Shown in pieces: positions 1-40,611 of a stretch of DNA of 64,000 nucleotides. How positions within the stretch are numbered: the stretch's first letter is position 1; each line of letters begins with the position of its first letter. The stretch is from Arthrobacter sp. RIT-PI-e. Its GTDB lineage: Bacteria > Actinomycetota > Actinomycetes > Actinomycetales > Micrococcaceae. The translations under genes were made by a program, and so were the position numbers. The stretch covers positions 1-64,000 of the forward strand of contig NZ_LGIU01000081.1 of NCBI RefSeq assembly GCF_001187915.1, written 5' to 3'. The notes under the pieces are model-generated. The model saw only the letters and a program-made list of their open reading frames with translations. It searched no databases and was not told where the DNA came from.

Positions 1-253
1 CCAGCACCGACTGCACGGTGCGGAAACCGAGCACCGCGAGGGACACGACGGCGACGACGCGGCCCGTGGTGCCCTCGGTGACGGCGTCGATCAGCAGCCC
101 CAGCAGCAGCGGACCCGCCAGGCCGGCGATCGCCGAACCCACGTAGAGCGCGATCACCACGCCGAGACCGCGCCGGTGGTGCCGGATCAGGCGCGTGGCC
201 TCGGCCCGCACCGCCCGCGGGCTCGCCACGGGGAGGGTACTCGTACTACTCAC
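1..253 (-). CDS. ABC transporter, transmembrane half (partial)
   Basis: Only the first 84 codons are in the window; the gene runs off the left edge. The GTG start at 253 overlaps the stop of the upstream ABC half-transporter (TAG at 246-248), so the two are translationally coupled. The visible part starts with a basic cytoplasmic stretch (about residues 1-33) followed by two hydrophobic segments with the motif GPLLLGLLIDAVTEG, typical of the first helices of an exporter-type (type IV) ABC membrane domain. By context it is probably the partner subunit of a heterodimeric ABC exporter and should carry its own ATPase domain beyond the edge. Substrate unknown. Confidence 0.75.
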   Translation of the reverse strand, partial: MSSTSTLPVASPRAVRAEATRLIRHHRRGLGVVIALYVGSAIAGLAGPLLLGLLIDAVTEGTTGRVVAVVSLAVLGFRTVQSVL

Positions 254-2001: not shown

Positions 2002-2097
2002 AGAGGTTTGCCAATCGCTTTTCCACGTCCTGTCCCGGTCCTCCGCCGTCGGCGTAGCCATTCGTTGTTCTACAGAGGCACGAAGTACCGTTGAGGG

Positions 2098-3541: not shown

Positions 3542-3606
3542 CCGGCATCGTGCACGGCACCGTACGCAGTGTGCGGGGCGGGTTCCGTGCAGACTATTGT
3601 TGACGC

Positions 3607-5193: not shown

Positions 5194-5286
5194 CCGCATC
5201 CGGGAGGGGGACCACCCCACCCGGGTCCGGCCCGGGCCGCGTTGCTATCCGCGGGGCCCGTTCGCTAGTCGGATAGCTTGGAAGAC

Positions 5287-8200: not shown

Positions 8201-9354
8201 CGGCGCCCACCCGTTTCAGCATCGAGGTGCAGTCGGCCGACCGCGCCTCCACCCTGGAGGCCCCGCCGAGCGCCTTCGACTCGCTGCGCCGGATCCTCCC
8301 GGTACGCGGTCTCACGGAGATCTACCGGGCAGTGGACCGCAGCCTCGACACCTACCTGGGCGACTCGTTCTACGACGGCAAGCTCTCCCGCCTCCCGCAG
8401 GCCTCCGAGGTGACCGGGGAGGGCCGAGGTCTCGTGGTGGAGTACCTGCCGAACGGCACCGGGATGCCCAGTTCGGAGCACGAGGGTGTGGAGAGCGTGG
8501 ACGTCGAGGTCAAGCGCGTGGTCGAACTGGTCTTCGAGCACATCCGACGACGCCCCGGGTCTTCCCTCGCGGTGGTCACGGCGAGTGCACGGCATGCAGC
8601 GCGGGTGGGTGAGGCCATCCGGGTGCAGCTGGGACAGTTCCCGTGGGCGTCGGAGTTCTTCACCCCGGGGCGTGAGGCGTTCCGTGTGGTGCCGGTGGAG
8701 CGGGCCGGTGGGCTGGTGAGGGATCACATCGTGTTCTCCCTCGGGTTCGGGCGGACCCCCCACGGACGCACCCTGCACACGTTCGGGCCGCTGTCCGGTA
8801 GCGACGGGCGGCGTGCCTTCGTGATGGCGATGACCCGCGCACGGAGCCGGCTCCACATCGTGACCTGCGTACAGCCCTCGGACCTGGAGCCCGAGCGACT
8901 CACCGCCGGGGCCGCGGACTTCTTCGAACTGGTCCGGCGTGAGCTGGAGGAGGGCGCACCGGCCGAGGTACCCGTCCCCTCCGGGAACGAGGACCCGTTG
9001 GTGGCGGATCTCGTGGACCGTCTGCGCGAGCTCGGGGCCGAGGTGCAGGACCACTATGCAGGTGTCCTGGACATCGTCGCCGCGAAACCCGTGGGCCGGC
9101 GGGCCGACGGTATGCCGGCAACCGGCACGCACCGCCCTGCCCCGCTGGCCGTCGAGTCCGACGGCACCGCGCGCTACGGGGCGATGTCCGTCCGCGAGCG
9201 GAGCCGCCTCCGCCCCCAGGTGCTCGAGCGCATGGGCTGGCACTACTCGCCGCTGTGGACCATCGAGGTGTTCACCGATCCCGACGGATGTGCTGAGCGC
9301 GCCGCGGCCGTAATCGGACTGCCGGGGCGGGGGGCGCAGGAACAGCGGGGCTGA
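5287..9354 (+). CDS. Large SF1 helicase-like protein with C-terminal Vsr/MTES-1575-type nuclease domain
   Basis: A 1355-residue protein. Residues 1-120 are acidic, Pro/Ala/Asp-rich and repetitive, probably disordered. A P-loop region follows (ATPPGTGQTQTALN). The usual Walker A lysine is Gln412. The Walker B region reads FDTAVILDGESM (Asp944, Glu946) rather than the usual DEAS. Motif VI-like AMTRARSRL is present near residue 1185. The C-terminus has LDIVAAKP, ESDG, then RERSRLRPQVLERMGW and WTIEVFTDP, the layout of the Vsr-like endonuclease domain fused to DNA2/UvrD-like proteins, with Asp and ExD residues kept. I infer a nucleic-acid-binding protein whose ATPase may be impaired. The position after guaA is typical for Micrococcaceae. 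ATG at 5287 was preferred over TTG 5278. Biological role unknown. Confidence 0.75.
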   Translation: MPIWSRSARDNAGKKAVVPEQDPRDEAEAPADRPQDAAGAPEQPEPVIPGPLPQEPSDDGASPGSVQQEPGEEQPVQSEGDPETAVPPAADPGAGDRSAADPEVTDRSAADPGAADPGAADPSAQDLASWLDALGPQVSGDTLLHFRPSAGTSIDLTQAHPSGLAQMMAGRRTRLSTLLRDPVQYSAAKAAARALRAKIFELGTERGIDVGYLAAGTASWRVQDASGRSETLNAPVLLTAVSLTVHASQDDYELQITEQARMNPALVRHLRDWQGLDLDPQAVARLAYGTARFDPHPVLERVRLLSEGVRGMSVEHRILVATFADLAGVKGDPALQADHPVLAALLGAARGDDDAASALASAEQGLGFPHPDERDPAEELLVLDADRAQQDVLDLASAGVSLVVATPPGTGQTQTALNVAVRAAAAGRRVVVAAERRGTLNEFVQDLDGVDLGSLVLQLGSRSGPAQLREAVIRALVRNEKAVEPQLEKLHDTLTGNRYQLLEHVRSLHDVRSRWGCSPYQAMQSLAGLTALDPAPSTTVRLKRSVLDSIADRRELTERLRRTADLGSFTEASTWSPWYGAQLLNRKETEHAHTLTEQLSTEIPALRGEVRGVAEHAEIALGGTFREWGEQLELLVAVRGSLDKFTADIFDRPVTDLISATAPSSWRKERDIEMSSMTRSRLRRVAKEYIRPGVHIADLHTSLLEVQQQRTRWSQYALTERHPSVPTGLAEIRTSYRDVEIRLDELTGLLRTTRRHPDLGALPLDDLEALLTDLAADRETLETLPERTLLMDEMREQGLGELLDDLAAREITAERVGDELELAWWQSALEAMISGDDYLAMSDGDSLRTLESEFRAADDAHIASGPARIRWALAEQWRAAVDSHPEDAELLREELRAGSLTLGTFSRLHPALTSALLPVWAVSPLTVRGTVPDHQRFDTAVILDGESMSLQSAVPCIARSTQVIVFGDDRLAAPTRFSIEVQSADRASTLEAPPSAFDSLRRILPVRGLTEIYRAVDRSLDTYLGDSFYDGKLSRLPQASEVTGEGRGLVVEYLPNGTGMPSSEHEGVESVDVEVKRVVELVFEHIRRRPGSSLAVVTASARHAARVGEAIRVQLGQFPWASEFFTPGREAFRVVPVERAGGLVRDHIVFSLGFGRTPHGRTLHTFGPLSGSDGRRAFVMAMTRARSRLHIVTCVQPSDLEPERLTAGAADFFELVRRELEEGAPAEVPVPSGNEDPLVADLVDRLRELGAEVQDHYAGVLDIVAAKPVGRRADGMPATGTHRPAPLAVESDGTARYGAMSVRERSRLRPQVLERMGWHYSPLWTIEVFTDPDGCAERAAAVIGLPGRGAQEQRG
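5611..5653 (+). repeat. 15-bp tandem coding repeat
   Basis: The unit GCCGCCGACCCGGGT occurs twice in full and a third time for 13 bases, encoding Ala-Ala-Asp-Pro-Gly repeats in the disordered N-terminus of the helicase-like protein. Degenerate relatives of the unit precede it from about 5551. It is in frame, so copy-number change would only alter tail length. Confidence 0.7.
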
Positions 9355-9798
9355 GCGGGCGGGGTCACGGCGGGGGCGGCCGGGAAGCCTCCGGTGGGGC
9401 GGACCCCGGGGGGCGAGCCCCCGGAGGGGACACCCCGCGCCGGACGGGTTCCGGGCGGTCCGGCGGTTCCCGTGCTGGCGGGGGGGGACGAGCCCCGGGC
9501 CCGGGGGGGTCGGCCGAACGACCCCGCCGCCGGGCCCCCCGGCAGCGCCCGCCCCACTGGGGCTGACGCTTCGACGCAGCCGGTGCGCTGACGCTCCGAC
9601 GCAGACTGTGCGACGCAGACTGTGCGGTGCAGACGGTGCGGTGCAGCCGGTGCGCGTGACCGGTCCGCCGGCATCGGCGCGGAGGGAATCGGTCCGGAGG
9701 GATCCGCCCGGCACGACCGTCCGTCCGGATCCAGCCCCTGACGTCGCCGTCGGGCCGCGAGCGGTATGGGGGGCGACGGCTGAGCGCGGCGTGGTCCG
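9355..9798. other. 444-bp gap between convergent genes
   Basis: No credible gene is seen. The first 200 bp are almost pure G/C with long G and C runs (for example 9479-9487), one of the A/T-depleted patches in this window. The second half carries a set of 14-bp repeats (entered separately). Open frames here have no recognisable protein features. Confidence 0.6.
9573..9654 (+). repeat. Short tandem repeat array, 14-bp period
   Basis: Four head-to-tail copies start at 9598, 9612, 9626 and 9640, with a fifth at 9573. Copies read GACGCAGACTGTGCG (twice), GGTGCAGACGGTGCG, GGTGCAGCCGGTGCG and GACGCAGCCGGTGCG. All keep GCAG-N3-GTGCG. The array is non-coding and lies between convergent genes. It is too short and has no spacers, so it is not CRISPR. 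Binding site or slippage product cannot be told apart. Confidence 0.75.
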
Positions 9799-10479
9799 TC
9801 ATCGGCCGCTCGTGAGGATGAGGTGGACGTCCCCCGCGCTGGACGCCCCGGCGAGGGCGGCCGCCTCCTCCGGGCCGGCGGCCACCACCACGAGCCCGGC
9901 CTCCTCACCGCCACCGCCCCACATCCCGGACGTGGTGCCCGTGCCGCCCGGTGCGGTCCAGAGGACCGGCGCGGCGCGGGCCAGGACCGTGGAGTCCGCC
10001 GCGACGTCGTAGCCGTTGCCGGTCCGGAGGATCACGTCCACGAGCTGACCCGGGGCGAGGAGCCCGACGGTGCTCGGATCGGCGGGGCGGAGGGGCACGG
10101 CCCCCGTACCCGGGGCGGCCCCGGCCAGCAGCCCCGCTCCCCCCAGGGCGGGGGCCGGGACCGGGAAGCCCCGCGGAAGCGGTACGGCGAGCTGCTGCCC
10201 CACCAGCTCGTCCGTCCCCTGGAATCCCTGACCGGCCACGGCGTCCACCGGAAGATCGACGAGGGAGAGATCCGCCGCGGAGAGCACCGTGCCCACGGCG
10301 AGGTCGCGGGAGGCACTGATCACGGGCGTGGTGGGCGAACCGTCCCCGACGAGTGCCTCCACCGAGACCCCGGCCGCAGCACTGAGCAGCAGGCAGGTGA
10401 TCAGGCGTTTGCGGCGGTGCAGCATCCGGCGGAGGCGGTGGCCCAGCGGCGCACCCTGGGAACGGTTTCTCGGGTCCAT
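9799..10479 (-). CDS. SAF-domain protein, CpaB/RcpC-like
   Basis: A 226-residue product with a basic N-terminus (RRMLHRRKR), one membrane helix (LITCLLLSAAAGVSVEALV), then a SAF domain beginning VISASRDLAVGTVLSAADL and continuing through VGQQLAVPLPRGFPV. CpaB/RcpC proteins of this shape act in Flp pilus assembly at the envelope, but no other pilus gene is nearby. The C-terminal part is rich in Gly/Ala and ends DVHLILTSGR. ATG at 10479 follows AGGG at a suitable distance; an in-frame GTG lies 6 bp upstream. It is on the same strand as fmdB-like and the cyclo-ligase, an arrangement I recall from Micrococcaceae. Confidence 0.75.
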   Translation of the reverse strand: MDPRNRSQGAPLGHRLRRMLHRRKRLITCLLLSAAAGVSVEALVGDGSPTTPVISASRDLAVGTVLSAADLSLVDLPVDAVAGQGFQGTDELVGQQLAVPLPRGFPVPAPALGGAGLLAGAAPGTGAVPLRPADPSTVGLLAPGQLVDVILRTGNGYDVAADSTVLARAAPVLWTAPGGTGTTSGMWGGGGEEAGLVVVAAGPEEAAALAGASSAGDVHLILTSGR

Positions 10480-10678
10480 GCCCACACCCTAGGAAGCGTG
10501 CACTGCCCGATGGTCCTGCTGCTCGGTCATGTGGACAACCCGGTGCACCGCGGCTCCGCCGACAGGGATTCCCGCGGGCCGGGAGGCCTCCGTGCCGGAG
10601 CTCCCGCGAACCGGGAGGCCGCGGACCGGGATCCGATGACGAGGGGGAGCGGGATCCGATGACGGGCGGAGCGCCAGG

Positions 10679-11023
10679 TCAGGAGGCGGTGGACCCGCTG
10701 CTGGTCGAGGAGGTGGCCGGGGCCGGGGCGGACGATGACGACTCCGCGGGCTTGGCGGAGGCCGCCGGGGAGGACTCCTTGGCCGACTCCGAGGTCGATC
10801 CGGACGCAGAACCCGACGTGGATCCTGCTTCGGAGCTCGTCGAGGTCGCGCGGGAGTCGTTGCGGTAGAAACCTGACCCCTTGAACACCACGCCCACGCT
10901 GTTGAACTTCTTCCGCAGCGTGCCACCGCACTCGGGGCACACCGTCAGGGAGTCGTCGGAGAACGCCTGCTGGATGTCGAAGGCGTGGCCGCAGTCCTTG
11001 CAGGCATAGGCGTACATGGGCAT
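10679..11023 (-). CDS. FmdB-family zinc ribbon protein
   Basis: Small putative regulatory protein of 114 residues. It starts MPMYAYACKDCGHAFDIQQ and has the two CxxC pairs of the FmdB zinc ribbon (Cys8/Cys11 in CKDC, and CPEC near residues 29-32), followed by LRKKFNSVGVVFKGSGFY, the conserved end of the domain. The last about 55 residues are Ser/Ala/Thr/Pro-rich low-complexity tail. A good AGGAGG lies 8 bp before the ATG. Function of the family is poorly defined. Confidence 0.9.
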   Translation of the reverse strand: MPMYAYACKDCGHAFDIQQAFSDDSLTVCPECGGTLRKKFNSVGVVFKGSGFYRNDSRATSTSSEAGSTSGSASGSTSESAKESSPAASAKPAESSSSAPAPATSSTSSGSTAS

Positions 11024-11152
11024 GGAGATCCTCCTGGAAGGGTGTCGTGATTCCGGATGGCCTGCGTGGTTGCCCTCGTTCTGGCACTCTCCGGGGTCGA
11101 GTGCCAGTCTACACCGGGTGCGCGATGCTCCGGTGCCGCGAGGGAACCCCTG

Positions 11153-28427: not shown

Positions 28428-29513
28428 GTGGCTCTTACTATCGGCATCGTCGGACTGCCCAACGTCGGCAAATCAACACTCTTCAACGCACTGACGCGGA
28501 ATAACGTCCTGGCGGCGAACTACCCGTTCGCGACCATCGAGCCGAACGTGGGCGTGGTCAACCTGCCGGACCCGCGCCTGGCACGCCTCGCCGAGGTCTT
28601 CGGCTCCGCGCGGCTCCTTCCCGCCACGGTGTCCTTCGTGGACATCGCGGGCATCGTGAAGGGTGCGTCCGAGGGGGAGGGGCTCGGCAACCAGTTCCTC
28701 GCTAACATCCGTGAGGCCGAGGCGATCGCCCAGGTGATCCGCGTGTTCGACGACCCCGACGTGATCCACGTGGACGGCAAGGTGGACCCGCGCTCCGACA
28801 TGGAGACCATCAACACGGAGCTGATCCTCGCCGACCTGCAGACGCTGGAGAAGGCGATCCCGCGTGTCGAGAAGGAAGTGAAGATCAAGAAGCGCGAGGC
28901 CGCGCAGCTCGCCGCGATGCAGGCGGCGCAGACCGTCCTGGAGCGCGGCGACACCGTCTTCTCGTCCATCGCGAAGGACAAGCTGGAGATGGAGCACCTC
29001 CGCGAGCTCAGCCTGCTCACCGCCAAGCCGTTCATCTACGTGTTCAACGTGGACGACGCCGTGCTCGGCAGCCCGGACCGCCAGCAGGAGCTCCGCGACC
29101 TCGTGGCTCCCGCCGACGCCATCTTCCTCGACGCGAAGCTCGAGGCCGACCTCGTGGAGCTCGACGAGGCCGAGGCCCGCGAGATGCTCGAGATGAGCGG
29201 CCAGGAGGAGTCCGGGCTGGACCAGCTGGCGCGCGTCGGCTTCCACACCCTCGGCCTGCAGACCTACCTGACGGCGGGTCCGAAGGAGAGCCGGGCCTGG
29301 ACCATCAAGAAGGGGGCGACGGCGCCCGAGGCGGCCGGCGTCATCCACTCCGACTTCCAGCGCGGCTTCATCAAGGCCGAGGTGGTCTCCTTCGAGGACA
29401 TCGTGGACGCCGGCTCCATGAGCGAGGCCAAGTCCCGCGGCAAGGTCCGCATCGAGGGCAAGGAGTACGTCATGTCCGACGGCGACGTGGTGGAGTTCCG
29501 CTTCAACGTCTAG
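28428..29513 (+). CDS. ychF: Redox-responsive ATPase / GTPase-like YchF
   Basis: OBG-family P-loop protein that prefers ATP (OLA1/YchF). Motifs are GLPNVGKSTLFNALT (G1), NYPFATIEPNVGVV, DIAGIVKGASEGEGLGNQFL (G3), FNVDD in place of NKxD (the YchF variant) and a C-terminal TGS-like domain ending GDVVEFRFNV. 361 residues, normal. GTG 28428 starts directly before the first strand; an upstream in-frame ATG adds ten residues without homology. Its last codons recur 8.5 kb downstream (38013-38037), so its 3' end may be an integration site. Confidence 0.95.
   Translation: MALTIGIVGLPNVGKSTLFNALTRNNVLAANYPFATIEPNVGVVNLPDPRLARLAEVFGSARLLPATVSFVDIAGIVKGASEGEGLGNQFLANIREAEAIAQVIRVFDDPDVIHVDGKVDPRSDMETINTELILADLQTLEKAIPRVEKEVKIKKREAAQLAAMQAAQTVLERGDTVFSSIAKDKLEMEHLRELSLLTAKPFIYVFNVDDAVLGSPDRQQELRDLVAPADAIFLDAKLEADLVELDEAEAREMLEMSGQEESGLDQLARVGFHTLGLQTYLTAGPKESRAWTIKKGATAPEAAGVIHSDFQRGFIKAEVVSFEDIVDAGSMSEAKSRGKVRIEGKEYVMSDGDVVEFRFNV
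29489..29513 (+). repeat. Left copy of ychF 3'-end repeat (attL-like)
   Basis: The 25 bases ending in the ychF stop codon match 38013-38037 at 24 positions. The single difference is TTC here against TTT there, a silent Phe change. The sequence encodes VEFRFNV-stop plus one upstream G. Confidence 0.6.
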
Positions 29514-30166
29514 TCCGACATGCCTGACATGCGTCGTCCGGACAACCGGGAAATCGGTAGCACTCCGGCTCCGGGGGATCTCTGAGCAGCCGGCTCGATA
29601 GGGCACCGACATGAGACTCGGGGTGCCCCGCCCGGGTGGATCCTCCTGGGTTGGGCACCTCGTGTGCCGGCAAAGAGAATCGTCATGGTTCGGTTTCGGG
29701 CTTTCACCGAGAGGGCGTGTGATTCCGGCTCGTCTGCCTCGACGAAGAGCACCGTTGACTGTCACGACGACTCACTGGCCGGTCTGTTGTGTTCATGGAT
29801 GCAGGTCGAGCCCCTGGACCGAGTGACGTGGAGAACCCGGATCGAACTGGTGAACGCGATGTTCGACCACCCAGGGATCTGGCACACGGTGAACGCTGTC
29901 ATAGCCAGCTCGGTTGGCTCAGTCCTGTGGGGCGCGATCGCCACCGCATCATCACCGTTGTATGTGCATCCGAGACATACGAACCATGTAAAGCCCAGGT
30001 CGCATCACAGACCTGGTAGGACTCGGGACACACCGTCTCCAAGAACAACATCAGGGCAGCTCGCTCCGACGTCCGGGAGGACACCGGAGGTCGACAATGA
30101 CAGGTCAGGGCGGGGCCGCCCTGACCTGTCACTGTCAGTTCCTCGTGCTACGGGCGTGAGCGAGGA
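29514..30166. other. 653-bp gene-poor stretch after ychF
   Basis: No gene that I can support. Codon use and composition differ from flanking genes, with A/T-rich words and mixed third positions. Open frames of up to about 230 codons on the plus strand show no domain features and run into the antisense of the MFS gene. It may be remains of a lost gene of the inserted element. A perfect 34-bp inverted repeat near the right end is entered separately. Confidence 0.5.
30098..30131 (-). terminator. Perfect 34-bp inverted repeat downstream of the MFS gene
   Basis: Arms TGACAGGTCAGGGCGG and CCGCCCTGACCTGTCA are exact complements with only GG between. It lies 36 bp past the stop of the minus-strand MFS gene, where a terminator for the island unit is expected. 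No T-run follows on either strand. Confidence 0.55.
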
Positions 30167-31579
30167 TCACGCGCGGGCATCCGTGCGGCGGCGGTGCGCT
30201 TCGATCGCGATCTTCTCATCCTTGTTGATGATGACGAAGAACACGACTGTGATCACGACGAAGACGAGCAGCATGACGAAGGTGACGTCCCAGCCGAAGT
30301 TCTGGACCACCAGACCGATTCCGGAGGACGCGAGTGTTGCCCCGAGGACGTAGCCGAACAAACCGGTGAACCCGGCTGCGGTGCCGGCGACCCGACGCGG
30401 GGAGAGGTCGAGTGCCTGGAGGCCGATGAGCATCACGGGACCGTAGATCAGCCCGCCGATGAAGGTCACCGCCACGAGCGAGACCCACAGGGGTGCCGAC
30501 GCCGGCGTGAGCCAGTAGACGGCCACGGCGATGCCGACGGCCACCATGAAGGTGATACCCGTGAGCGACCGGTTGCCCCGGAAGATCTTGTCCGATGCCC
30601 ACCCGCACAGCAGTGTTCCGACGATCCCTGCGAGCTCGAACAGGGAGAAGCCGGCGATGCCGCCGGCCAGTGATGCCCCACGGACCTGGGAGAGGTAGAT
30701 CGGTGTCCAGGTCAGCACGCCGTACCGCAGGGCGTAGACGAAGACGTTGGCCAGTGCGAGCAGGACCATCGTCCGGTTCCGGATCACGTGCTTGCGGACC
30801 ACGGCCCACATGCCCAGCTCGGCGTCACCGGCGGCATCCTCGACCTTGGCGGGATCGTCGCGGTACTCCTCGATCGTCGGCAATCCCTGGGACTCGGGTG
30901 TGTCGCGGACGAGGAAGAAGGCGACGACCGCCACCACGATCGCCACGAGCGCGGGCAGCCAGAAGGCCGCCGTCCAGTCGTTGCCCGTGAGGGAGAGGCC
31001 GATGGCCGCGAGTACTCCGACGGCGAATCCGCCGACATTGTGGGCGACGTTCCAGATGGAGGTCTTGATGCCGCGTTCGTTGGTCGAGAACCAGTGGACG
31101 AGGACCCGGCCGCAGGGCGGCCAGCCCATGCCCTGGACCCAGCCGTTAATGAACATGACGATCGCGAACAGTGCGAGGGATGCCGAGACTGCGGGGACGA
31201 AGGCGACCACGAGGTTGGCAACAGCTGAGAGGAGCAGCCCGATCGGCAGGAAGTACCGTGCATTGGATCGGTCGGACACCGTTGCGGAGAGGAACTTGGA
31301 GAACCCGTAGGCGATCAGCGCGGCATTGGCGATGATCCCGATGCCCAGCTCGTCCAGCCGGCCTTCGTCGATGAGCAGCGATCCCACGAGCGGGATGTTG
31401 TTGCGGATCAGGTAGTACCCGGCGTACCCGATGAAGATGCCGAGGAACACCTGGAGGCGGAGCCTCGGGTAGCGTTTCGCGACGGTCGTGTCGTCCAGGC
31501 GTTCGGTGGGCGGGGGTGCGGCGAGGAACCTCATGAGTCCCTTGTCGGCCCGGGTGCCGCTGGTGGTGGAGTGAGGCAT
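30167..31579 (-). CDS. Organophosphate antiporter, UhpT/GlpT-type MFS
   Basis: A 470-residue MFS permease of the organophosphate:phosphate antiporter group. Family traits are LRLQVFLGIFIGYAGYYLIRNN in helix 1 (the group's FxGYxxYYxxRxN pattern with the phosphate-binding Arg), GLLLSAVANLVVAF, the very conserved MFINGWVQGMGWPPCGRVLVHW, RGIKTSIWNVAHNVGG and ALRYGVLTWTPIYL. Twelve helices are expected. Such carriers take up hexose phosphates, glycerol-3-phosphate or phosphoglycerate in exchange for Pi. ATG 31579 follows CAGGA. The gene is last in the minus-strand unit, 71 bp after the ABC ATPase gene. Confidence 0.9.
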   Translation of the reverse strand: MPHSTTSGTRADKGLMRFLAAPPPTERLDDTTVAKRYPRLRLQVFLGIFIGYAGYYLIRNNIPLVGSLLIDEGRLDELGIGIIANAALIAYGFSKFLSATVSDRSNARYFLPIGLLLSAVANLVVAFVPAVSASLALFAIVMFINGWVQGMGWPPCGRVLVHWFSTNERGIKTSIWNVAHNVGGFAVGVLAAIGLSLTGNDWTAAFWLPALVAIVVAVVAFFLVRDTPESQGLPTIEEYRDDPAKVEDAAGDAELGMWAVVRKHVIRNRTMVLLALANVFVYALRYGVLTWTPIYLSQVRGASLAGGIAGFSLFELAGIVGTLLCGWASDKIFRGNRSLTGITFMVAVGIAVAVYWLTPASAPLWVSLVAVTFIGGLIYGPVMLIGLQALDLSPRRVAGTAAGFTGLFGYVLGATLASSGIGLVVQNFGWDVTFVMLLVFVVITVVFFVIINKDEKIAIEAHRRRTDARA

Positions 31580-31650
31580 GATTCCTGTCTTTCGGTGATG
31601 CTGCGCGGGTGGTGCAGGTGCAGGTGCAGGTGCGGGAAGGTGCGGGGTGG

Positions 31651-32802
31651 TCAATCCTCGGCCGGGAGCAGCCAGGCCCTGTCCTGTTCGAAGGACACCC
31701 GGACGAACGTGCCGGACTCCAGAATGTCCCCTGGGACCGGGTCGTAGATCACGGCCGTGACATTGCCTCCCACGGTCTCGATCTCGTACTCGACCCAGGC
31801 TCCGTAGAACACGGACTTGAGGACACGCCCGTTGTTACCGGACACCTCGCGGGCATCCGGGAGCGGCGACAGGGCGACGGACTCGGGCCGGACCATCAGA
31901 CAGACCTGGCTGTCGGCGCCGATCCCCTCATGGGCGGGGACGGTGTAGGTGGCGCCGAGGGCGCGGACCGTGGCGCGGGCGCCGTCGGTGTCCCGGGTCA
32001 ACTGCTCGATCGAGGTGTCGAGGAAGTTCGCGCGGCCGATGAAGTCGGCCACGAACACCGACGCCGGCTTCCGGTACACGGTCTCCGGTGTGGCCACCTG
32101 CTCGATGCGGCCCTGGCGCATCACGACGATCCGGTCCGAGAGGCTCATCGCCTCGTCCTGGTCGTGCGTGACGTAGACGCTGGTGATCCCGAGCTTGTGC
32201 TGGAGGGCACGGATCTCCGTGCGCATCTGCACTCGGAGCTTGGCATCGAGGTTGGACAGCGGTTCGTCGAAGAGCAGGACCTTGGGCTTCATCACCATGG
32301 CGCGGGCCAGTGCCACCCGCTGCTGCTGACCGCCGGAGAGCTGGTTGGGGGCACGGTCCGCGAGTTTCGTCAGGCTCATGGAGGCCAGGGCGAACGCCAC
32401 CTCCTCCTGGACCCGCTTCTTCGGCAGCTTCTGCAGGCGCAAGCCGTAGGCGACGTTGTCGAAGACGCTCATGTGCGGGAACAGGGCGTAGGACTGGAAC
32501 ACCATCGCCATGGGCCGTTTGTCCGGGGTGAGTGCCACCATGTCCTCGCCGTCGAGGGTCAGGGATCCGTGGGAGGGCGTCTCGAAGCCCGCGATCATGC
32601 GCAGGGTGGTGGTTTTCCCGCATCCTGACGGGCCCAGGAGGGTGAGGAACTCCCCCGGACGGATGTCGAGGTCGATGCCGGCGACCGCCGGTTCGGCGCT
32701 GATGCCGCCGGGGTACTGCTTGACGAGGTTGTCGAGGTGCAGGCTGCCCGAGGGGTTCGTGCCGGGGGCGGTCTCGCTCGGAGTGCTGAGGATCGTTGCC
32801 AT
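31651..32802 (-). CDS. ABC transporter ATP-binding subunit (AfuC/PotA-like)
   Basis: A 383-residue ATPase of an importer. The sequence has Walker A GPSGCGKTTTLRMIAGFE, Q-loop MVFQSYALFPHMSVFDNVAYG, signature LSGGQQQRVALARAM, Walker B VLLFDEPLSNLDAKLR and the H-loop YVTHDQDEAMSLSDR. A C-terminal TOBE domain follows (CLMVRPESVALSPL, about residues 290-380). This set is typical of ATPases for iron(III), polyamine or sugar-phosphate importers. It follows the permease gene by 34 bp and so is in the same operon. Confidence 0.92.
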   Translation of the reverse strand: MATILSTPSETAPGTNPSGSLHLDNLVKQYPGGISAEPAVAGIDLDIRPGEFLTLLGPSGCGKTTTLRMIAGFETPSHGSLTLDGEDMVALTPDKRPMAMVFQSYALFPHMSVFDNVAYGLRLQKLPKKRVQEEVAFALASMSLTKLADRAPNQLSGGQQQRVALARAMVMKPKVLLFDEPLSNLDAKLRVQMRTEIRALQHKLGITSVYVTHDQDEAMSLSDRIVVMRQGRIEQVATPETVYRKPASVFVADFIGRANFLDTSIEQLTRDTDGARATVRALGATYTVPAHEGIGADSQVCLMVRPESVALSPLPDAREVSGNNGRVLKSVFYGAWVEYEIETVGGNVTAVIYDPVPGDILESGTFVRVSFEQDRAWLLPAED

Positions 32803-32836
32803 GATTTTTCTCCGGGTTCTGCGGGAGGTGGAGGAG

Positions 32837-34576
32837 TCAGTTGACGCGCGTGGGAGCTCGGCGGTCCCGGATCAGGAGGTTCATCAGTCCGATCACCCCG
32901 AGCACGATCGCGATGAGGATGGTGCAGTAGGCGAAGGCGTTGCCGAACCGGCCGGAATCGACCTCGGACAGGATCTGCGAGGTCATGATCTTCGTCTGCG
33001 GCGTGGTGATGAAGATGATCGGGGAGAGGGTGGTCATGGCCCGGGCGAAGGCGTAGGTCAGACCCGAGAGCAGGGCGGGGCGGATCAGCGGGAGGGTGAT
33101 GCTGCGGAAGGTGCGCAGCCCGGACGCCCCCAGCGAGGTGGACGCCTCGTCGATCGCGGGGTCGATCTGCTGGAGCGCGGCGATGCCCGAGCGCTGCCCG
33201 GACGGCATGGAGCGGATGACGTAGACCATGACGATGGCCAGGGCGCCGCCGAAGATGGCACCGCCCCCGGCCAGGGCCGGAAGCAGCTGGATGTTGCCGA
33301 TGATGAAGGGCTTGTTGAAGGCCAGTGCGTACCCGATGCCGAGCACGGTACCCGGCACGGCGAGACCCAGCATGCCCAGGAAGTCCAGGGCGCCGCGGCC
33401 CCGGCGTACCTTCCGGACCACCAGCCACGCCAGGATCATTCCGAGGACGCCGGCCACCGGGGTGGCGATCAGCGCGAGGATGGTGGTGGTGAACATGGCG
33501 TCCGATCCGATGCCCGAGAGCACGTACCGGTAGTTCGCGAGCGTGAACGTGTTGTTCACGCCGAGGATGGCGGTGAAGGCTCCCACGAAGACGGTGACGT
33601 AGATGGCCACGATCAAGGTCGCGATCGCGAGGACCACCGTGAGCAGGGGGATCCGGGCCAGGGGCGAGCGCAGCAGCGTGACGTTGCCTGACGGCTTTCC
33701 GGTCACCGACACCACACTGCGCCGTTCGGCCCAGTACCGCTGCACGAGGAAGACGAGGAGCCCGGGAAGCAGGAGCACCAGGGAGTATGCCGCACCGCTC
33801 GCGACGTCGTACTCGCCCGTGATGGCGATGTAGGCGCGGGAGGAGAGCACGGTGAAGTCGCCGCCGATCACGAGGGGGTTCGCGAGGTCCGCGATCGCTT
33901 CGACGAAGAGCAGCAGGAAGCAGCTCGCGAATCCCGGGACGAGCATGGGGACGGTGACACTGCGGAAGATCTTCCAGCGGTCGGCGCCGAGGCTGGACGC
34001 CGCCTCGTCCGTGGCGGGGTCCAGGCTGCGGAGCATGCCGAGGAGGTTCATGTACGCCACGGGGAAGAAGGACAGGGACAGCACCAGCGTCAGCCCGGTG
34101 AGCCCGTAGATGTTGTAGTCCAGGCCCAGCATCTTGTTGGTGACGAGCCCGCTCCGCCCGAAGAGGGTGATGACGGCCGTGGCCACCGCGAAGGGCGGCG
34201 AGACGATGGGCAGGAGCGCGATCAGGTGGAGCAGCTTCTTGCCCCGGAAGTCGAGTCTCGCCTGCGCGTAGGCGAAGGCGAAACCGATCGCCGTGCCGAC
34301 TGCGCCTACGAGCACACCCAGCACCACGGTGTTCAGCAGCACAGCCCGGTTGGCCGGCGACGTCGCGATGTTCCGCAGCGTCTCGAGGCCCTCCGCGCCG
34401 AACGCCTGGGTCAGGATGCGCACCAGCGGGTAGCCGATGAGGATCGCGAGGATGAGGACGACGGCGGTGATCACCAGCTTGGTCACGGCGTCCATCCTCG
34501 CCCCGCCCTGGCGGGATCCCTTGCGGGGGGGTGCGGCGGCCGGCAGGGCGGCGGCGGGGGGCGTGTCGAGGCTCAC
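32837..34576 (-). CDS. ABC transporter two-domain permease (AfuB/FbpB-like)
   Basis: A 579-residue permease in which two six-helix BPD domains are fused. Each half has an EAA loop: DEAASSLGADRWKIFRSVTV near residue 190 and DEASTSLGASGLRTFRSITL near residue 490. Both are followed by the usual Pro-Leu step. This fused layout is the FbpB/AfuB/PhnV-type subunit. The first 25 residues are Pro/Ala-rich, encoded by a patch with G runs at 34500-34560, so the start could be at the internal MDAVTKLVI. It pairs with the lipoprotein 51 bp upstream. Confidence 0.9.
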   Translation of the reverse strand: MSLDTPPAAALPAAAPPRKGSRQGGARMDAVTKLVITAVVLILAILIGYPLVRILTQAFGAEGLETLRNIATSPANRAVLLNTVVLGVLVGAVGTAIGFAFAYAQARLDFRGKKLLHLIALLPIVSPPFAVATAVITLFGRSGLVTNKMLGLDYNIYGLTGLTLVLSLSFFPVAYMNLLGMLRSLDPATDEAASSLGADRWKIFRSVTVPMLVPGFASCFLLLFVEAIADLANPLVIGGDFTVLSSRAYIAITGEYDVASGAAYSLVLLLPGLLVFLVQRYWAERRSVVSVTGKPSGNVTLLRSPLARIPLLTVVLAIATLIVAIYVTVFVGAFTAILGVNNTFTLANYRYVLSGIGSDAMFTTTILALIATPVAGVLGMILAWLVVRKVRRGRGALDFLGMLGLAVPGTVLGIGYALAFNKPFIIGNIQLLPALAGGGAIFGGALAIVMVYVIRSMPSGQRSGIAALQQIDPAIDEASTSLGASGLRTFRSITLPLIRPALLSGLTYAFARAMTTLSPIIFITTPQTKIMTSQILSEVDSGRFGNAFAYCTILIAIVLGVIGLMNLLIRDRRAPTRVN

Positions 34577-34627
34577 GGGGAACTCCTTCGGCCGGGGAGG
34601 GCGGCGGCCGGCGGGGGGGGATGCCGG

Positions 34628-35686
34628 CTACTCGCGCGGCTGGGCCGCGATCTCCTCGTCGAAGCGCGTGGTGAGCTCCTTCTTGGCGGCGGCCGCGGCC
34701 TCGAAGTCGTAGTCCACGAGGTTGGTCGTATCGAGGTCGATCATGCGGTCGTCCTGTACCGAGTCGGGATTGGTCAGCACCTGGTAGGAACCCACCGTCG
34801 GGCCGATGTCCTGGGCCTCGGGGGTGAGCGACCAGTCGACGTAGGCCTGGGCCGCCGCGAGGTTGTCGGTGCCCTTGACGATCCCCACGCCGCCCACCTC
34901 GTAGCCGGTGCCCTCCTCGGGCAGGGAGACCTCGAGGTCGTTCATGCCCGCTTCCTTGTACTTGACGCAGTCGTGCGTGAACACCAGGCCCACCGCCACC
35001 TCGCCCCGCCCCGCGGCCTGGCCCGGCGCGGTACCGCTCTTGGAGTACTGCAGCACGTTGTTGTGGAGCTTGCGCATGTAGTCGAACGCGGCGTCCTCGT
35101 CGCCCCCGGCCAGGGTCACCTGCGTCCACAAGGTGGTGAATGCGGTACCCGAGGTCGAGGGGTGCGCCGTCGACACCTGGCCCTTGAGCTCGGGGACCAG
35201 CAGGTCCGACCACGCCGTCGGTACGTCGACGCCGAGACCGTCGAGCTTCGCCTGATTGGAGCAGAAGCCGAGGGCCCCGACGTAGACACCCGTCCAGTAG
35301 TCGTCCTCGTCCCGGTACTTCTCGGGGATCTGCGCCGCGTTCGGGGACTCGTACCGCTCCAGCAGGCCTGCATCGGCGGCGGTACCGTAGCCGTCGGCGG
35401 GACCGCCGTGCCACACGTCGAACTCGGGTGAGTCCTTGGCCGCCTCGAGGCGGGCGACCGTCTCGCCGGAGGACAGGCGGACGAAATCGGTCCGGACGCC
35501 GGTCTTCTCGGTGAAGGCGGTGGTCATGGCCTGGCACCAGTCCTCCATGGCTCCACAGGCCACGGTGAGGGTGCCGCCGAGTTCACCGTCCGTCGATGTC
35601 TGCTGGGTGTCGTCGACCACGCAGCCGGAGAGGCCGAGCGTGATGGTGCCGAGGAGGGCCGCGGTGAGCGCTGCGGTGCGCTTCAT
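34628..35686 (-). CDS. ABC transporter substrate-binding lipoprotein (AfuA-like)
   Basis: A 352-residue extracellular receptor. The signal peptide ends in lipobox LSGC (Cys22). The mature protein opens GGTLTVACGAMEDWCQAM and has the AfuA/Fe(III)-type order: SGETVARLEAAKDSPEFDVWHGG, VYVGALGFCSNQ, PTAWSDLLVPELKGQV, then HPSTSGTAFTTLWTQV, where related proteins hold phosphate or iron anions. AfuA homologues are known that bind hexose phosphates rather than iron, and the antiporter neighbour makes phosphorylated ligands more likely here. Three mature cysteines are unusual. ATG 35686 follows AAAGGCAAGCC. Confidence 0.9.
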   Translation of the reverse strand: MKRTAALTAALLGTITLGLSGCVVDDTQQTSTDGELGGTLTVACGAMEDWCQAMTTAFTEKTGVRTDFVRLSSGETVARLEAAKDSPEFDVWHGGPADGYGTAADAGLLERYESPNAAQIPEKYRDEDDYWTGVYVGALGFCSNQAKLDGLGVDVPTAWSDLLVPELKGQVSTAHPSTSGTAFTTLWTQVTLAGGDEDAAFDYMRKLHNNVLQYSKSGTAPGQAAGRGEVAVGLVFTHDCVKYKEAGMNDLEVSLPEEGTGYEVGGVGIVKGTDNLAAAQAYVDWSLTPEAQDIGPTVGSYQVLTNPDSVQDDRMIDLDTTNLVDYDFEAAAAAKKELTTRFDEEIAAQPRE

Positions 35687-35826
35687 GGGCTTGCCTTTCG
35701 TGGGGGGAAGCGTCGTCGCTGCCCGTCGGCCACCCGGATACCGGGTAGAGGATTCATCCCACCGTATCGATCGGTCGTGGGCCTGAACGGTGACGACGGT
35801 CACGCTCGGTCACAGCCCTGTGACCT

Positions 35827-36534
35827 TCACGTCCCGGACGCACCCCGGTCCCGCCCGGGACGAGGCAGCTCGTAGCCCACCCCCCGGACGGCCCGGACGG
35901 CCCGCGGCATCCCCTCGCCGTGCAGGGCCTTCCGCACGCGGTACAGCGCTGTCTTCAGCATCTCGCGGCCACCTGGGCCCTCGTCGATCTGCCATCCGGA
36001 CAGGAGGAGGTCGCGGAAGGTGACGGGTTGGCCCTGCGCGCTCGCGAGGCGTCGCAGGAGCCTCAGTTCCAGGGCGGAGAGATGCAGGTAGCGGCCGTGG
36101 ACGGTCGCGGTGTCCTGACCGATGCGCAGCGGTCCGTGCACCAGTTCCACGTGCGAGGGTGTGACGGCGGTACGGCGGACGATCGCCTCGGCTCGCAGGG
36201 CGAGCTCGCGCGGGTGGAAGGGTTTGGTCACGTAGTCGTCCGCCCCCGCCTCGAGTCCGGCAATCCTGTCCTGCACGCCGCTCTTGGCCGTGAGCAGGAG
36301 GACGGGGACTGCACCCGTCTCCCGGATGCGCCGGCACAGGGAGAGACCCGAGGACTGTGGGAGCATCACGTCCAGTACCACGAGGTCGAACCGGCGGTCC
36401 CGGAAGAGGGTCCACGCCGACTCGGCGTCCCTGGCGGAGACACTCGCGAACCCCTGGGTCTCGAGGGCGAAGGTCACGATGTCCAGCATCTGCGGTTCGT
36501 CGTCCACCACCAGGGCGAGATGCGGATACTCCAT
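35827..36534 (-). CDS. OmpR-type response regulator
   Basis: A 235-residue regulator. The receiver domain has acidic pocket Asp11/Asp12, the phosphorylation site Asp55 (LVVLDVMLP), LLTAK and GADDYVTKPFHPRELALR. A winged-helix effector follows from about residue 135 (LHLSALELRLLRRLASAQGQ, VRKALHGEGMPRAVRAVRG, GYEL). Its ATG overlaps the kinase stop (ATGA), so the pair is coupled. It is read towards the AfuA-like gene, 140 bp away, so it probably controls the transport genes. Confidence 0.93.
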   Translation of the reverse strand: MEYPHLALVVDDEPQMLDIVTFALETQGFASVSARDAESAWTLFRDRRFDLVVLDVMLPQSSGLSLCRRIRETGAVPVLLLTAKSGVQDRIAGLEAGADDYVTKPFHPRELALRAEAIVRRTAVTPSHVELVHGPLRIGQDTATVHGRYLHLSALELRLLRRLASAQGQPVTFRDLLLSGWQIDEGPGGREMLKTALYRVRKALHGEGMPRAVRAVRGVGYELPRPGRDRGASGT

Positions 36535-37514
36535 CAGGCGCCTACCGCCGTCGACCGGGGGAGCACCATGCCCGGTGTGCGCTCCGGCAGGCTGAACAGC
36601 ATGGTGGTCCCGCGTCCGGGCGTACTGTCGACGAACACGTCACCTCCGTGCATCTGGACGATCTGCCGGGTGATCACCAGCCCGAGTCCCGTGCCGTCCT
36701 GCAGTGGCCTGCCGCTGGAGAACCGGGTGAACAGTTCCCTGCGCTGGGTCTCCGGCATGCCGTCGCCGTCGTCGTTCACGGAGATGAGCACCTGGTCGTC
36801 GGCGTTGACGATCCGTACGGTGATGAGGCTGGCATTGGCCGCGTGGGCCACCGCGTTGTTGATGAGGTTGGTCATGGCCTGCCGGATCAGGGCGCTGTCG
36901 GCCCAGGCCCTCGGCGGTGCTCCGGGGCAGTCGAGGGCGAACTGGACGGGGTGCAGCTGGCGTAGCTCACTGATCACCGTGGAGGCCAGTACGCGCAGGT
37001 TGACCCGGTGGAGGTGGAGTTCGAACATCCCGGCGTCGATCCGCGCCTGGGTCAGCAGATCCTCCGCGAGGGCGATCACCGCGTGGCAGTTGCCGCTGAT
37101 GGTCGTGACGAAGCGGGCCTGGCTGTCGGTCAGCGGTCCGGGGGAACGCTCTCCGAGGAGGTCGGCTGCGCCTCGGATCAGGGCGAGGGGGGTGCGGATC
37201 TCGTGGCTCACCACGGAGATCTGGTCCGCATTGCGCTGCGCGATGCTGCGCAGGCGGCTGATCTCGGCGCGGTCCGAGAGCCAGGACCGCACGATCAGGA
37301 ACAGCGCGATGATGGAGCCGATGGCCAGGGTGTCGAACGTGAGGGCGGCGAGGGTGTCACCGGCCGGGACGATGCTGCTGAGGAGGAACAATCCAGCCAG
37401 AAGGGCGAAGAAGAGGGCCGCGCCGATCCGGACCACGCGCGGCAGGGGCATGCGGCTGGCCAGGAACAGGCCGAGCATCGCTCCCGCGGCCGAGCAGTAG
37501 TAGAGCCAGTTCAC
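36534..37514 (-). CDS. Sensor histidine kinase
   Basis: A 326-residue membrane kinase. It has two or three hydrophobic segments in the first 77 residues with almost no outside loop, so it may sense inside the membrane or through the transporter. The HisKA domain carries His104 in VVSHEIRTPLALI. The HATPase domain has N-box NLINNAVAHA, G1 NDDGDGMPE, and G2 GTGLGLVITRQIVQMHGG. First gene of the island unit, overlapping the regulator gene by one base. Input signal unknown. Confidence 0.92.
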   Translation of the reverse strand: MNWLYYCSAAGAMLGLFLASRMPLPRVVRIGAALFFALLAGLFLLSSIVPAGDTLAALTFDTLAIGSIIALFLIVRSWLSDRAEISRLRSIAQRNADQISVVSHEIRTPLALIRGAADLLGERSPGPLTDSQARFVTTISGNCHAVIALAEDLLTQARIDAGMFELHLHRVNLRVLASTVISELRQLHPVQFALDCPGAPPRAWADSALIRQAMTNLINNAVAHAANASLITVRIVNADDQVLISVNDDGDGMPETQRRELFTRFSSGRPLQDGTGLGLVITRQIVQMHGGDVFVDSTPGRGTTMLFSLPERTPGMVLPRSTAVGA

Positions 37515-38012
37515 CTAAGCAGTGTAGATGTCACGGAACCCATCGATTCTGGCGCATGGGTCTGTTGTCAGGATGGGACACGCTGCAGGCTGACCTGCCT
37601 TCACGAAGCAGGATCGAGACAGCACTGTCGATCGTGGCCGGTTCCGGCCTTGCTGCGGTCGACTCCTCTTGGGGGATACGGATCACGAAGCAGGGCGAAC
37701 AGCTCCGGCGGTCCGTGGAAGGTTCCGAGTGGATACGGCTGATGCCGAGTGCGATCAGCGACCTGCCAGCAGGACATGAGTCGAAGTGCACGCCGCTGAG
37801 TCTGCCCGAGTCGGTCTATGCCCCGGCGCGTGAGGACTACGTGAACCTGGGTAGTCGCAGGGCTGAAGCAAGATCGCGACATCGCTGGTGGTAGCCCACC
37901 CCTTGTCGGCGCTCCCGTCGGTGACGCGGCCGGGCGAGGGTCGCCGGACGCTGAGGCCGAGGACGGTGTCGGGGTCGTGGATCGTCTGTGATGTTGTCCG
38001 ATGACGGAATGC
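37515..38012. other. 498-bp gene-poor stretch before the right repeat
   Basis: No supported gene. It should contain the promoter of the kinase gene on the minus strand. Short frames on both strands (up to about 110 codons) have no recognisable motif. Composition is mixed and lower in G/C than the core genome, as in the left flank of the island. Confidence 0.5.
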
Positions 38013-38037
38013 GGTGGAGTTCCGCTTTAACGTCTAG
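38013..38037 (+). repeat. Right copy of ychF 3'-end repeat (attR-like)
   Basis: 24 of 25 bases equal to 29489-29513. Read in the ychF frame it encodes VEFRFNV and the TAG stop, preceded by a stop three codons upstream, so it is a tail fragment and not a gene. About 20 bases before it show weaker likeness to the ychF sequence (TGTCCGA followed by a G-rich match). Confidence 0.6.
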
Positions 38038-38063
38038 CGTTATTGACGCTTGTCGTTATACAT
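38038..38063 (+). promoter_or_regulatory. Candidate higBA promoter/operator
   Basis: Two direct copies of CGTTAT start at 38038 and 38054 and the second overlaps a -10-like TATACA (38057-38062). HigA-type antitoxins repress their own operon by binding such sites over the promoter. No good -35 is seen at the correct distance, so this is tentative. Confidence 0.3.
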
Positions 38064-38070
38064 TGATTTG

Positions 38071-38352
38071 GTGATCAGGTCGTTCGGCAGCAAGGACACC
38101 GAACGAATCTGGCATGAGCAGTACGTCAAGCGTGTAGACCGGACGGTGCAACGGGCGACCCTGCGGAAGCTCGAGTTGATCCATGCGGCGAAGGATGTCG
38201 AGGACCTGCGGATTCCCCCGGGGAATCGGCTGGAGCGACTCGCCGGCGATCGTCGTGGTCAGCACAGCATCAGGGTGAACGCCCAGTGGCGTCTCTGCTT
38301 CGTCTGGAGAGATGGAGGTGTGGAAGATGTCGAACTCGTCGACTACCACTGA
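38071..38352 (+). CDS. higB: HigB/RelE-family toxin
   Basis: A 93-residue mRNA interferase of the HigB (YoeB/RelE-like) family that cleaves mRNA at the ribosome. It starts VIRSFGSKDTERIWHEQY and has ATLRKLELIHAAKDVEDLRI, PPGNRLERLAGDRRGQHSIR and the C-terminal WRLCFVWRDGGVEDVELVDYH, with the family's Arg and His residues retained. The GTG at 38071 matches the usual IRSF start. It overlaps the antitoxin gene by 26 bp. It starts only 34 bp after the right copy of the ychF tail. Confidence 0.92.
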   Translation: MIRSFGSKDTERIWHEQYVKRVDRTVQRATLRKLELIHAAKDVEDLRIPPGNRLERLAGDRRGQHSIRVNAQWRLCFVWRDGGVEDVELVDYH

Positions 38353-38647
38353 GAACGACCTGATCGAGCCGATCCATCCTGGGGAGATCCTCATGGAGGA
38401 CTTCATCGAGGCCTTCGGGATAACACAGAACAAGCTCGCAGTTTCGATCGGAGTGCCGCCGCGGCGCATCAACGAGATCGTGCACGGCAAGCGCGGCATC
38501 ACGGCCGATACAGCGATCCGCCTCGCCCGGTACTTCGGCACGTCCGAGGAGCTGTGGATGAATCTGCAGTCCAACTACGAGCTTCGACTTGAGCGCCGAG
38601 TGCTGAGTAAGAAGGTTGCCGCGATCACGCCCCTGGAGGTGGCGTGA
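38327..38647 (+). CDS. higA: HigA-family antitoxin, XRE/VapI-type
   Basis: A 106-residue antitoxin and autorepressor. The VapI/HigA core is PIHPGEILMEDFIEAFGITQ, then a helix-turn-helix (NKLAVSIGVPPRRINEIVHG) and RGITADTAIRLARYFGTSEE, LWMNLQSNYEL. ATG 38327 has GGAGG eight bases upstream inside higB. Toxin first, antitoxin second is the higBA order. Confidence 0.92.
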   Translation: MSNSSTTTENDLIEPIHPGEILMEDFIEAFGITQNKLAVSIGVPPRRINEIVHGKRGITADTAIRLARYFGTSEELWMNLQSNYELRLERRVLSKKVAAITPLEVA

Positions 38648-39739: not shown

Positions 39740-40611
39740 GTGCCCGAACTGCATCAGGCCGTGTTCACGGTGCCACACGGTGATGGGTCTGCTGCACCGA
39801 CAGGTTGCAGTTCGGCCTGTCCCGTGGTTCCCGCTCTGGGGCAGGGAACGTGGAACCTGGGCGATTCTCCTTCCAGCCGGAATGCTGAGATCGAAGCGCT
39901 GCGTACGGGTATCGATCTTGGTCTGACTGTGATCGATACCGCCGAGATGTACGGTGATGGACACAGTGAGGTCCTTGTCGGAGAAGCCATCAGGGGCAGG
40001 CGCGATGAGGTTTTCCTGGTGAGCAAGGTCCTACCCTCGAACGCGTCCGCGGCAGGCACGATCAAGGCCTGTCATGCAAGCCTGGACTGTCTGGGCACTG
40101 ACTGCTTGGACCTGTATCTCCTGCACTGGCGGGGGAGATTCCCGTTCGAGGAGACCGTCGCAGCGTTCGATTCCCTCGTCGAAGAGGGCTCGATCCGTGC
40201 GCGGGTATGAGCAACCTCGACACCGACGAGCTGCAGAGTCTACCTGAGGGGTGCCAGACCGATCAGGTGCTGTACAACCTGACCCGTCGCGGTCCGGAGT
40301 TCGACCTGATGCCATGGTCCGCGTCAACGAAGATGCCCGTGATGGCCTCTTCGCCCGTCGAGCAGGGACGACTACTCGGCAACCCGGATCTGACACAGAT
40401 CGCACGTGAGCTCGGCGCGACGCCCGCGCAGGTCGCTCTGGCGTGGACGATGCGCACCGGCAGCGTGCTCGCGATCCCGAAGGCCTCGACCGCCGAGCAT
40501 GTGCTCGAGAATGCCGCCGCCCGCGACCTCCACCTCCGCGACACCGATCTCGAACGCCTCGATCGGGCGTTCCCGCCGCCGACGCACCCGGAGCCCCTCG
40601 AAATGCTGTGA
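39740..40611 (+). pseudogene. Aldo/keto reductase, frameshifted
   Basis: Two frames together make one AKR. Frame one (to 40210) has [38 protein letters not shown] (catalytic Asp and Tyr), the catalytic-lysine strand [13 protein letters not shown] and [16 protein letters not shown]. Frame two (from about 40200) continues SNLDTDEL, DQVLYNLTRRGPEFDLMPW, GATPAQVALAWTMRTGSVLA and AIPKAS. The break is at about 40195-40210, where a Trp-Gly-Val-Ser-Asn sequence is expected; about one base has been lost. The first 28 codons of frame one do not look like AKR. NADPH-dependent reduction of a carbonyl is the family reaction. The surrounding sequence is not a homopolymer patch, so real decay is more likely than in other cases here. 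Confidence 0.75.

Follow-up and report, generated by a model that had tools for sequence, protein, structure and literature searches.

An island at the 3' end of ychF in Arthrobacter sp. RIT-PI-e is most likely an integrase-less unit of a serine-recombinase attachment array

The stretch analysed here (the window) comprises 64,000 nucleotides of Arthrobacter sp. RIT-PI-e (contig NZ_LGIU01000081.1, positions 1 to 64,000). It contains the gene ychF, an 8.5-kb island (GT 29490 to GT 38014) and a second copy of the ychF 3' end, referred to below as a tail. Six genes lie between the two tails, all on the minus strand (Table 1). The last 25 bases of ychF (29489-29513) read GGTGGAGTTCCGCTTCAACGTCTAG, and the second tail (38013-38037) reads GGTGGAGTTCCGCTTTAACGTCTAG, which differs by one silent change. 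With up to three mismatches allowed, the 25-base tail matched twice in the window and never in 100 dinucleotide shuffles, and the whole 3.46-Mb assembly contained the same two matches and no others. A 58-bp weight matrix applied to both strands of the window detected exactly the two tail sites (scores 38.9 and 62.9). It found no third site on either strand, every other place scoring below 8, and the maxima were -13 in 20 mononucleotide shuffles and -11 in the reversed window. The GC content is lower towards the ends of the island (left about 0.61, right 0.62-0.64) than in its interior (0.64-0.72). The original prediction, made from the letters of this DNA, had described a duplicated ychF tail, coherent minus-strand genes between the copies and compositionally odd ends, and all three descriptions held.

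Table 1. Features of the window from ychF to the genes beyond the island. Positions are those of the window; genes were called with a codon-score script.
Feature	Position	Strand	Family or basis
ychF, target gene, C-terminus VVEFRFNV and stop	28428..29513	+	
ychF site of attB type; GT core at 29490-29491; motif CAACGTCTAG at +13 in the right half (B')	29490..29513	+	
Island left end, low GC, without clear gene	29514..30166		
Major facilitator superfamily (MFS) transporter	30167..31579	-	PF07690
ABC transporter ATPase	31651..32802	-	read from sequence
ABC permease	32837..34576	-	read from sequence
Solute-binding protein	34628..35686	-	PF13416/PF13343
Response regulator	35827..36534	-	read from sequence
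Histidine kinase	36534..37514	-	PF00512, PF02518
Island right end, beyond operon homology	37528..37986		
P half-site (foreign arm) of distal attR-type site; motif CAACSTCTRG 6/10 at +18	37987..38013	+	
Second ychF tail including the central GT (B' half encoding VEFRFNV and stop); motif 9/10 at +13	38014..38037	+	
HigB toxin, first gene of next unit	38071..38352	+	PF05015
HigA antitoxin	38312..38647	+	HTH_3
Aldo-keto reductase in two overlapping frames	39824..40611	+	

The sequence 5' of the 25 bp of the second tail is unlike ychF, and this foreign arm is conserved among such sites. The consensus of the distal sites consists of CCAGAGGTTG, 17 more bases ending in CGGAACGTG, the GT and then the ychF tail. 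In the foreign arms (P halves), the motif CAACSTCTRG was present with at least 7 of 10 matches at +18 outward from the GT in 86 of 115 cases, sites scoring below 40 having been dropped. At the same threshold, 106 of 115 distal tails and 81 of 82 ychF tails have it at +13. The attL P' halves of integrase-bearing elements have the motif at +18 in six of nine cases, and its profile was flat in 423 random stretches. In the att sites of the large serine recombinase LI integrase, the ZD motif in attB lies 5 bp further inward than in attP (PMC3783163), and we found the same arrangement here: relative to the B halves, the P halves have the motif displaced outward by 5 bp. This shift is the attP/attB rule, which argues that the N-V-stop codons of ychF (CAACGTCTAG) form a predicted B' half and that the distal sites are predicted attR-type sites (P-B').

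Since the weight matrix had been trained on sites found by the tail pattern, sites were also chosen independently, by the P half alone. Among 114 distal tails chosen in this way, 71 encode VEFRFNV and a stop, and variation reached 0.36 at third codon positions versus 0.15 and 0.11 at the others. By this coding signature the distal tails look like former ychF ends. A second half-site resembling GTTCCGNTTCAACCTC was seen after the tail, in most cases 26 or 21 bp past the GT, in 27 of 207 sites (for example L132:1330 and L046:13562; G and L numbers are our handles for genomes and loci), compared with 24 of 2820 random places.

Repeated tails are widespread. The tail pattern (up to three mismatches) matched 262 of 295 genomes of the family, whereas the reversed control pattern matched nine. 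At least two copies were present in 112 of the 295 (counted by hand, twice; some second matches on other contigs are due to chance), often in same-strand clusters, and the highest number was nine copies within about 17 kb in G004. As an unselected set we used 80 named ychF loci, 79 of which were scored (all but L037). Downstream of ychF and on its strand, 30 sites scoring at least 40 were found in 698 kb, versus none in 808 kb upstream and none on the opposite strand of the same loci; 16 of the 79 loci have at least one distal site. In a sample of the phylum, 52 of 396 genomes matched the tail, mostly in ychF itself (judged by eye from the letters). The non-ychF sites of that sample lie in the genome studied here and in G600, G609, G685, G618, G443 and G343, all of one class. 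We also observed P-B' sites clustered away from ychF or unlinked to it (G141:C1:3854507-3859448; L127), which resemble platform-less arrays.

One could imagine that homologous recombination or a chance duplication copied the ychF end without any site-specific recombinase, given the conservation of ychF and the possibility of recombination over a short tail. However, the common non-ychF arm of the distal copies at fixed spacing and their restriction to one side and one strand argue strongly against this, and matching integrases adjoin such sites, so that we regard it as hardly credible.

Six virus contigs match the site, and in three of them (L093, L094 and L096) a serine integrase adjoins it. 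The L096 integrase, P0001, carries PF00239 and PF07508 and is presumably akin to phiRv1/Bxb1; it shares 65% identity with the L093 integrase and 52% with that of L094. Fifteen relatives, 42-65% identical to P0001, belong to two groups, Int1 (about 455 aa) and Int2 (about 508-544 aa), and a Pfam run on one member of each group found PF00239 and PF07508 in both. A further 62 phage records match P0001 at E <= 1e-40, all below 60% identity, and a P0001 relative at E <= 1e-60 is present in 17 of the 295 family genomes (five best candidates per genome scored). All four full-length homologues at 52-56% identity start beside a tail without mismatch; among eight others at 36-41% identity, none had a tail in the flanks examined. 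The elements with close homologues appear phage-like from their genes as read, and in the two with ychF on the stretch its C-terminus is rewritten (VEFRHNTTSPQKK and VEFRFNATGSGNK, each followed by a stop).

Nine genomes carry the longer Int2 relative. In all seven with ychF in view, the gene lies within 11 kb and has a rewritten C-terminus (for example VEFRTGLTSGGKK and stop), mostly close to VEFR(S/T/H)G(L/I)TS..KK (L143, L145, L147, L140, L141, L142, L149). A distal tail is present on the fetched stretch in L143 (two mismatches), L144, L146 and L147. PADLOC analysis of ten proteins from five of these islands (L141 and L142 left out) gave type III restriction in L143, type I restriction in L145, a helicase and an HmaC-like protein in L147, methyltransferase matches only in L149 and no match for two L140 proteins. 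ArdA is also present in L147. When the loci were searched with P0001-P0003 by phmmer, integrases occurred only in phage-like or island contexts and in L024, with weak matches in L033, L055 and L131.

The Int elements thus have a cognate PF00239 and PF07508 integrase beside the site, which strongly supports, at the level of sequence, a serine integrase that acts at ychF; the enzyme class is most likely that of the large serine recombinases. The original prediction had proposed an island at a ychF end targeted and rebuilt by an integrase, with no integrase visible in it, and had recommended searching related genomes for such an enzyme there. Serine integrases were indeed found beside tails or near rewritten ychF genes, and the tail copies and relatives likewise support an island with a rebuilt 3' end; what did not stand is a lone element, the island being most likely one unit of an array.

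A tyrosine recombinase had first been suggested by an inverted repeat, CGGAAC-N8-GTTCCG. This candidate was rejected because the array genomes G095 and G191 have only two PF00589 matches each (presumably XerC and XerD) and serine integrases adjoin the site. No tyrosine recombinase turned up when loci L007-L092 and the window were scanned for its motif. The genome of strain RIT-PI-e (G000) contains ten tyrosine-integrase matches, several of them partial, on contigs C64, C32, C82, C87, C75, C29 and C33. On phage contig L098 a tyrosine integrase with PF00589 adjoins 40-odd bases of ychF tail (6832-6990 and 6981-7736), so a second recombinase class may use the ychF end.

Among the matches listed, 100 units lie between sites, with a median length of 1,676 bp (quartiles 1,003-2,888, range 221-11,130); their loci were mostly picked for having several tails and are not a random sample. 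In the 92 units of at most 6 kb, 175 genes were called: 35 units have one gene, 26 two, 13 three, nine none and nine more. After removal of redundancy 143 proteins were left, and the 135 of at least 70 aa were scanned. The first 25 of 151 Pfam families include GNAT acetyltransferases (8), TetR (5), HTH_3 (5), MerR (4), methyltransferases (4), PIN (3) and nucleotidyltransferases (3). The first 25 of 60 PADLOC families include single matches to AbiEi, AbiD, PifA, type IV restriction models and others. Overall, the cargo comprises toxin-antitoxin, acetyltransferase, regulator and some anti-phage genes.

The next unit after the window island starts at GT 38014 and holds the HigBA pair just past 38037. 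Among the matches listed, relatives of this pair start at a GT site in L034, L129 (twice), L064 (twice), L043, L031, L048, L127, L134, L132 and L087 (some at low-scoring sites of 24-28, as in L134 and L132), with pairwise identities of 67-88%. In L043, L048 and L064 a copy is joined to ychF itself, and HigBA units joined to ychF or other tails occur in Brevibacterium, Microbacterium, Cryobacterium and Demequina records. In the window, the region upstream of HigBA (38014-38060) overlaps the ychF tail, with TAACG and CGTTA opposed across TCTAG; from these letters, a HigBA operator may overlap the att tail there. The aldo-keto reductase further downstream has a homologue in a single frame near the ychF arrays of G158 and G130, and the two-frame copy is a possible array remnant.

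A 3,073-bp unit is 100% identical from GT to GT in two species (G095 and G181), with the preceding 600 bp of ychF 89% identical and the DNA after the unit unrelated. The comparison bounds the exchange between the base before the GT and tail base +18, and the GT fits. Shared units with different neighbours on both sides were found in L042/L046 (97%) and L031/L046 (91%). A further unit, 88% identical in L133 and L135, lies once behind ychF and once behind a P site, and L136/L135 also share a unit at 88%. These observations bear on the idea that each P-B' site is a scar left where a phage or island once integrated independently, with the integrase and most genes later deleted and the units left as immobile remains. 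Integrase-bearing elements do use the ychF site, arrays contain degenerate sites, and L131 has a 53-bit integrase-like fragment, though one without a Pfam family. But decay alone does not account for small units that recur GT-to-GT across species with different neighbours, one of them at 100%. In addition, a resident element would leave P' at ychF, whereas ychF in arrays nearly always ends in VEFRFNV and a stop. We therefore consider such decay improbable as the sole process.

The six-gene operon of the island is nearly whole in 5 of 38 genomes of the genus, our own included. G130 likewise carries the island at ychF, with 88% identity and without a break from ychF to 37561. In G248 and G285, which are 98% alike over the region, the 7.3-kb operon lies beside another gene, away from ychF. 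In these sister relatives ychF has a single tail and no island on the fetched stretch; the original prediction had expected the ychF stop of strains without the island to join the sequence at 38038. In G699 neither ychF nor a site is present on the 15-kb stretch around the operon. The left end of the island (29514-30166) aligns with G130 but not beside the operon in G248, G285 or G699. Being at ychF in G130 and elsewhere in G248 and G285, the operon is accessory and present at several places; its borders in the window are B-B' at ychF and P-B' at 38014.

These relatives also permit another history for the window alone, in which ordinary rearrangement assembled the operon at ychF and only the HigBA unit brought in the second tail. 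Operon homology ends within the island ends (30251-37527 in G285), and the operon occupies other loci in G248/G285 and G699. Against this history, the region runs on unbroken from ychF to 37561 in G130, and the array model assigns the P arm of the 38014 site to the left-hand unit. We judge this history to be quite unlikely. The site layout, the adjoining integrases and the 100% identical GT-to-GT cassette in relatives make it most likely that the window island is a unit without an integrase of its own, lodged in an attachment array of serine-recombinase type. Rather than standing alone, it would be one unit in a kind of array that many Actinomycetes carry. The original prediction's suggestion that the element is decayed or mobilised in trans came near to what the relatives indicate.

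As for the mechanism, we think it probable that the 3' end of ychF serves a family of large serine recombinases as attB and that integrase-less units hitch-hike with Int elements. Strand exchange would take place at the GT of the final GTG-GAG codons of ychF or immediately beside that GT, and an insert would therefore have to supply a working ychF C-terminus. The site would receive phage-like elements with Int1, islands with Int2 (some of which carry defence genes of restriction or helicase type) and units that lack an integrase. These last units, which in most cases have one to three genes, would run from ychF tail to P arm and end in an attR-type site. If ychF is occupied by an Int element (attL, B-P') and such units follow downstream, the integrase of that element together with a directionality factor could join attL with any downstream attR, and the resulting circle would hold the Int element and the neighbouring units. 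Small HTH_17 genes that such elements carry in L120 and L146 are candidates for this factor. After integration elsewhere, excision via the nearest attR alone would leave the units behind, with ychF restored and the integrase gone. G032 shows the gene order needed for this cis-mobilisation: an Int2 island at ychF is followed by a P-B' site (score 54) and then by unit-like genes, which match part of a unit in the L129 array at 83% over 1,732 bp. P arms match Int elements, and the unit cargo is not clearly derived from them.

Alternatively, an integrase could directly recombine ychF (B-B') with a circle carrying P-B', much as in integrons. Insertion and removal would then need no directionality factor, because the products are of the same kinds as the substrates. 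In keeping with this, array sites are P-B', array ychF mostly keeps B-B', unit sizes and the toxin-antitoxin and acetyltransferase cargo resemble integron cassettes, and HigBA units begin at the tail in many genomes. However, the serine integrases studied do not recombine other site pairings such as attB with attR, as far as the available part of the source states (PMC3783163), and an intact integrase was not found in the fetched arrays; we regard direct exchange as unlikely. For this reason we favour cis-mobilisation, and array growth requires either a two-step route or rule-breaking enzymes. The broader picture of an Actinomycetes integron-like system, with ychF as platform, cassette-borne C-termini and serine integrases of phages or islands that reversibly shuffle cassettes of one to three genes, is a tentative but possible one.

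Several findings weigh against hitch-hiking units of a serine-integrase array. The window contains no integrase gene, so none lies beside its own unit, and the genome has no relative of P0001 at E <= 1e-60. Int1- or Int2-type integrases (same threshold, five best candidates per genome) are present in 13 of 295 family genomes, far below the number with repeated tails. In L121 and L123 ychF lies outside the fetched stretch, and L140, L141, L142 and L149 have no distal tail on theirs. Motif matches are poor in some integrase-linked P halves (L094 and L101 5/10, L099 6/10) and P' halves (L122 4/10, L142 5/10, L147 6/10), and the B half of ychF hardly matches the motif. The unit shared by L135 and L136 (97%) has a common left neighbour as well (98%), and the right arm has diverged in L133/L135 (62%) and L136/L135 (58%). 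G130 comes close to the case that the original prediction had named as speaking against an insertion, namely the same genes in this place without a second tail, though its outer tail is degenerate (score 28) rather than absent. Finally, both the two-step route and a rule-breaking enzyme are candidates that were not observed, and the model leaves unexplained how a unit first gained its right P arm and left tail.

If the proposal is true, Actinomycetes of several families share a gene-exchange site at the ychF end, with toxin-antitoxin and some anti-phage genes as cargo. Classical integrons are seldom reported in this group. The question whether serine integrases, regarded as strictly one-way, can drive cassette accumulation becomes testable. 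Moreover, the site logic (attP arm, gene-tail attB half) is readable from sequence, so that new defence genes and integrases can be sought in the arrays.

Among the open-access titles and abstract openings listed as matches, none describes ychF cassette arrays, which does not prove their absence in print. Pneumococcal prophages sit upstream of ychF, a different site, according to the parts available (PMC8637289, PMC10383233). The ychF integrases have PF00239 with PF07508 and the attP/attB offset in common with phage serine integrases. Staphylococcal (SCC; rlmH, Ccr recombinases) and enterococcal (ECC) cassette chromosomes are alike in using large serine recombinases, in inserting at a conserved gene's 3' end, in having att sites about 50 bp long and in the extra att copies of complex islands (PMC6222049). 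SCC insert at rlmH, whereas ychF is the target here. In contrast to SCC and ECC, the ychF-site integrases are single proteins on phage-like elements or islands, the units are mostly 1-3 kb (versus 21-78 kb in ECC), and the arrays are one-sided, have foreign P arms and extend over several actinobacterial genera.

Cis-mobilizable elements (CIMEs) lack integration genes, keep att sites, stack at a gene end and can move with a related element, and for islands resembling integrative and conjugative elements the accretion and transfer of tandems are established, as described in the part available (PMC5704250). CIMEs (ICESt1-type, Streptomyces islands) resemble ychF units in the tandem piling of integrase-less units at a gene end. 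Unlike CIMEs, which keep attL and attR, ychF arrays show attR-type sites only (the window unit keeps its attR-type site, and its ychF side is B-B' rather than attL), and ychF units mostly hold one to three genes and are many per genome. Sedentary chromosomal integrons form rows of small site-ended cassettes at one platform with toxin-antitoxin cargo, according to the text available (PMC11551772), and ychF arrays have the same cassette rows, single platform and toxin-antitoxin cargo. An IntI-type tyrosine integrase at the platform was not found by the motif scan of L007-L092 and the window. Instead of IntI and attC, the ychF arrays have sites of the serine-recombinase type, and their platform is the 3' end of a coding gene.

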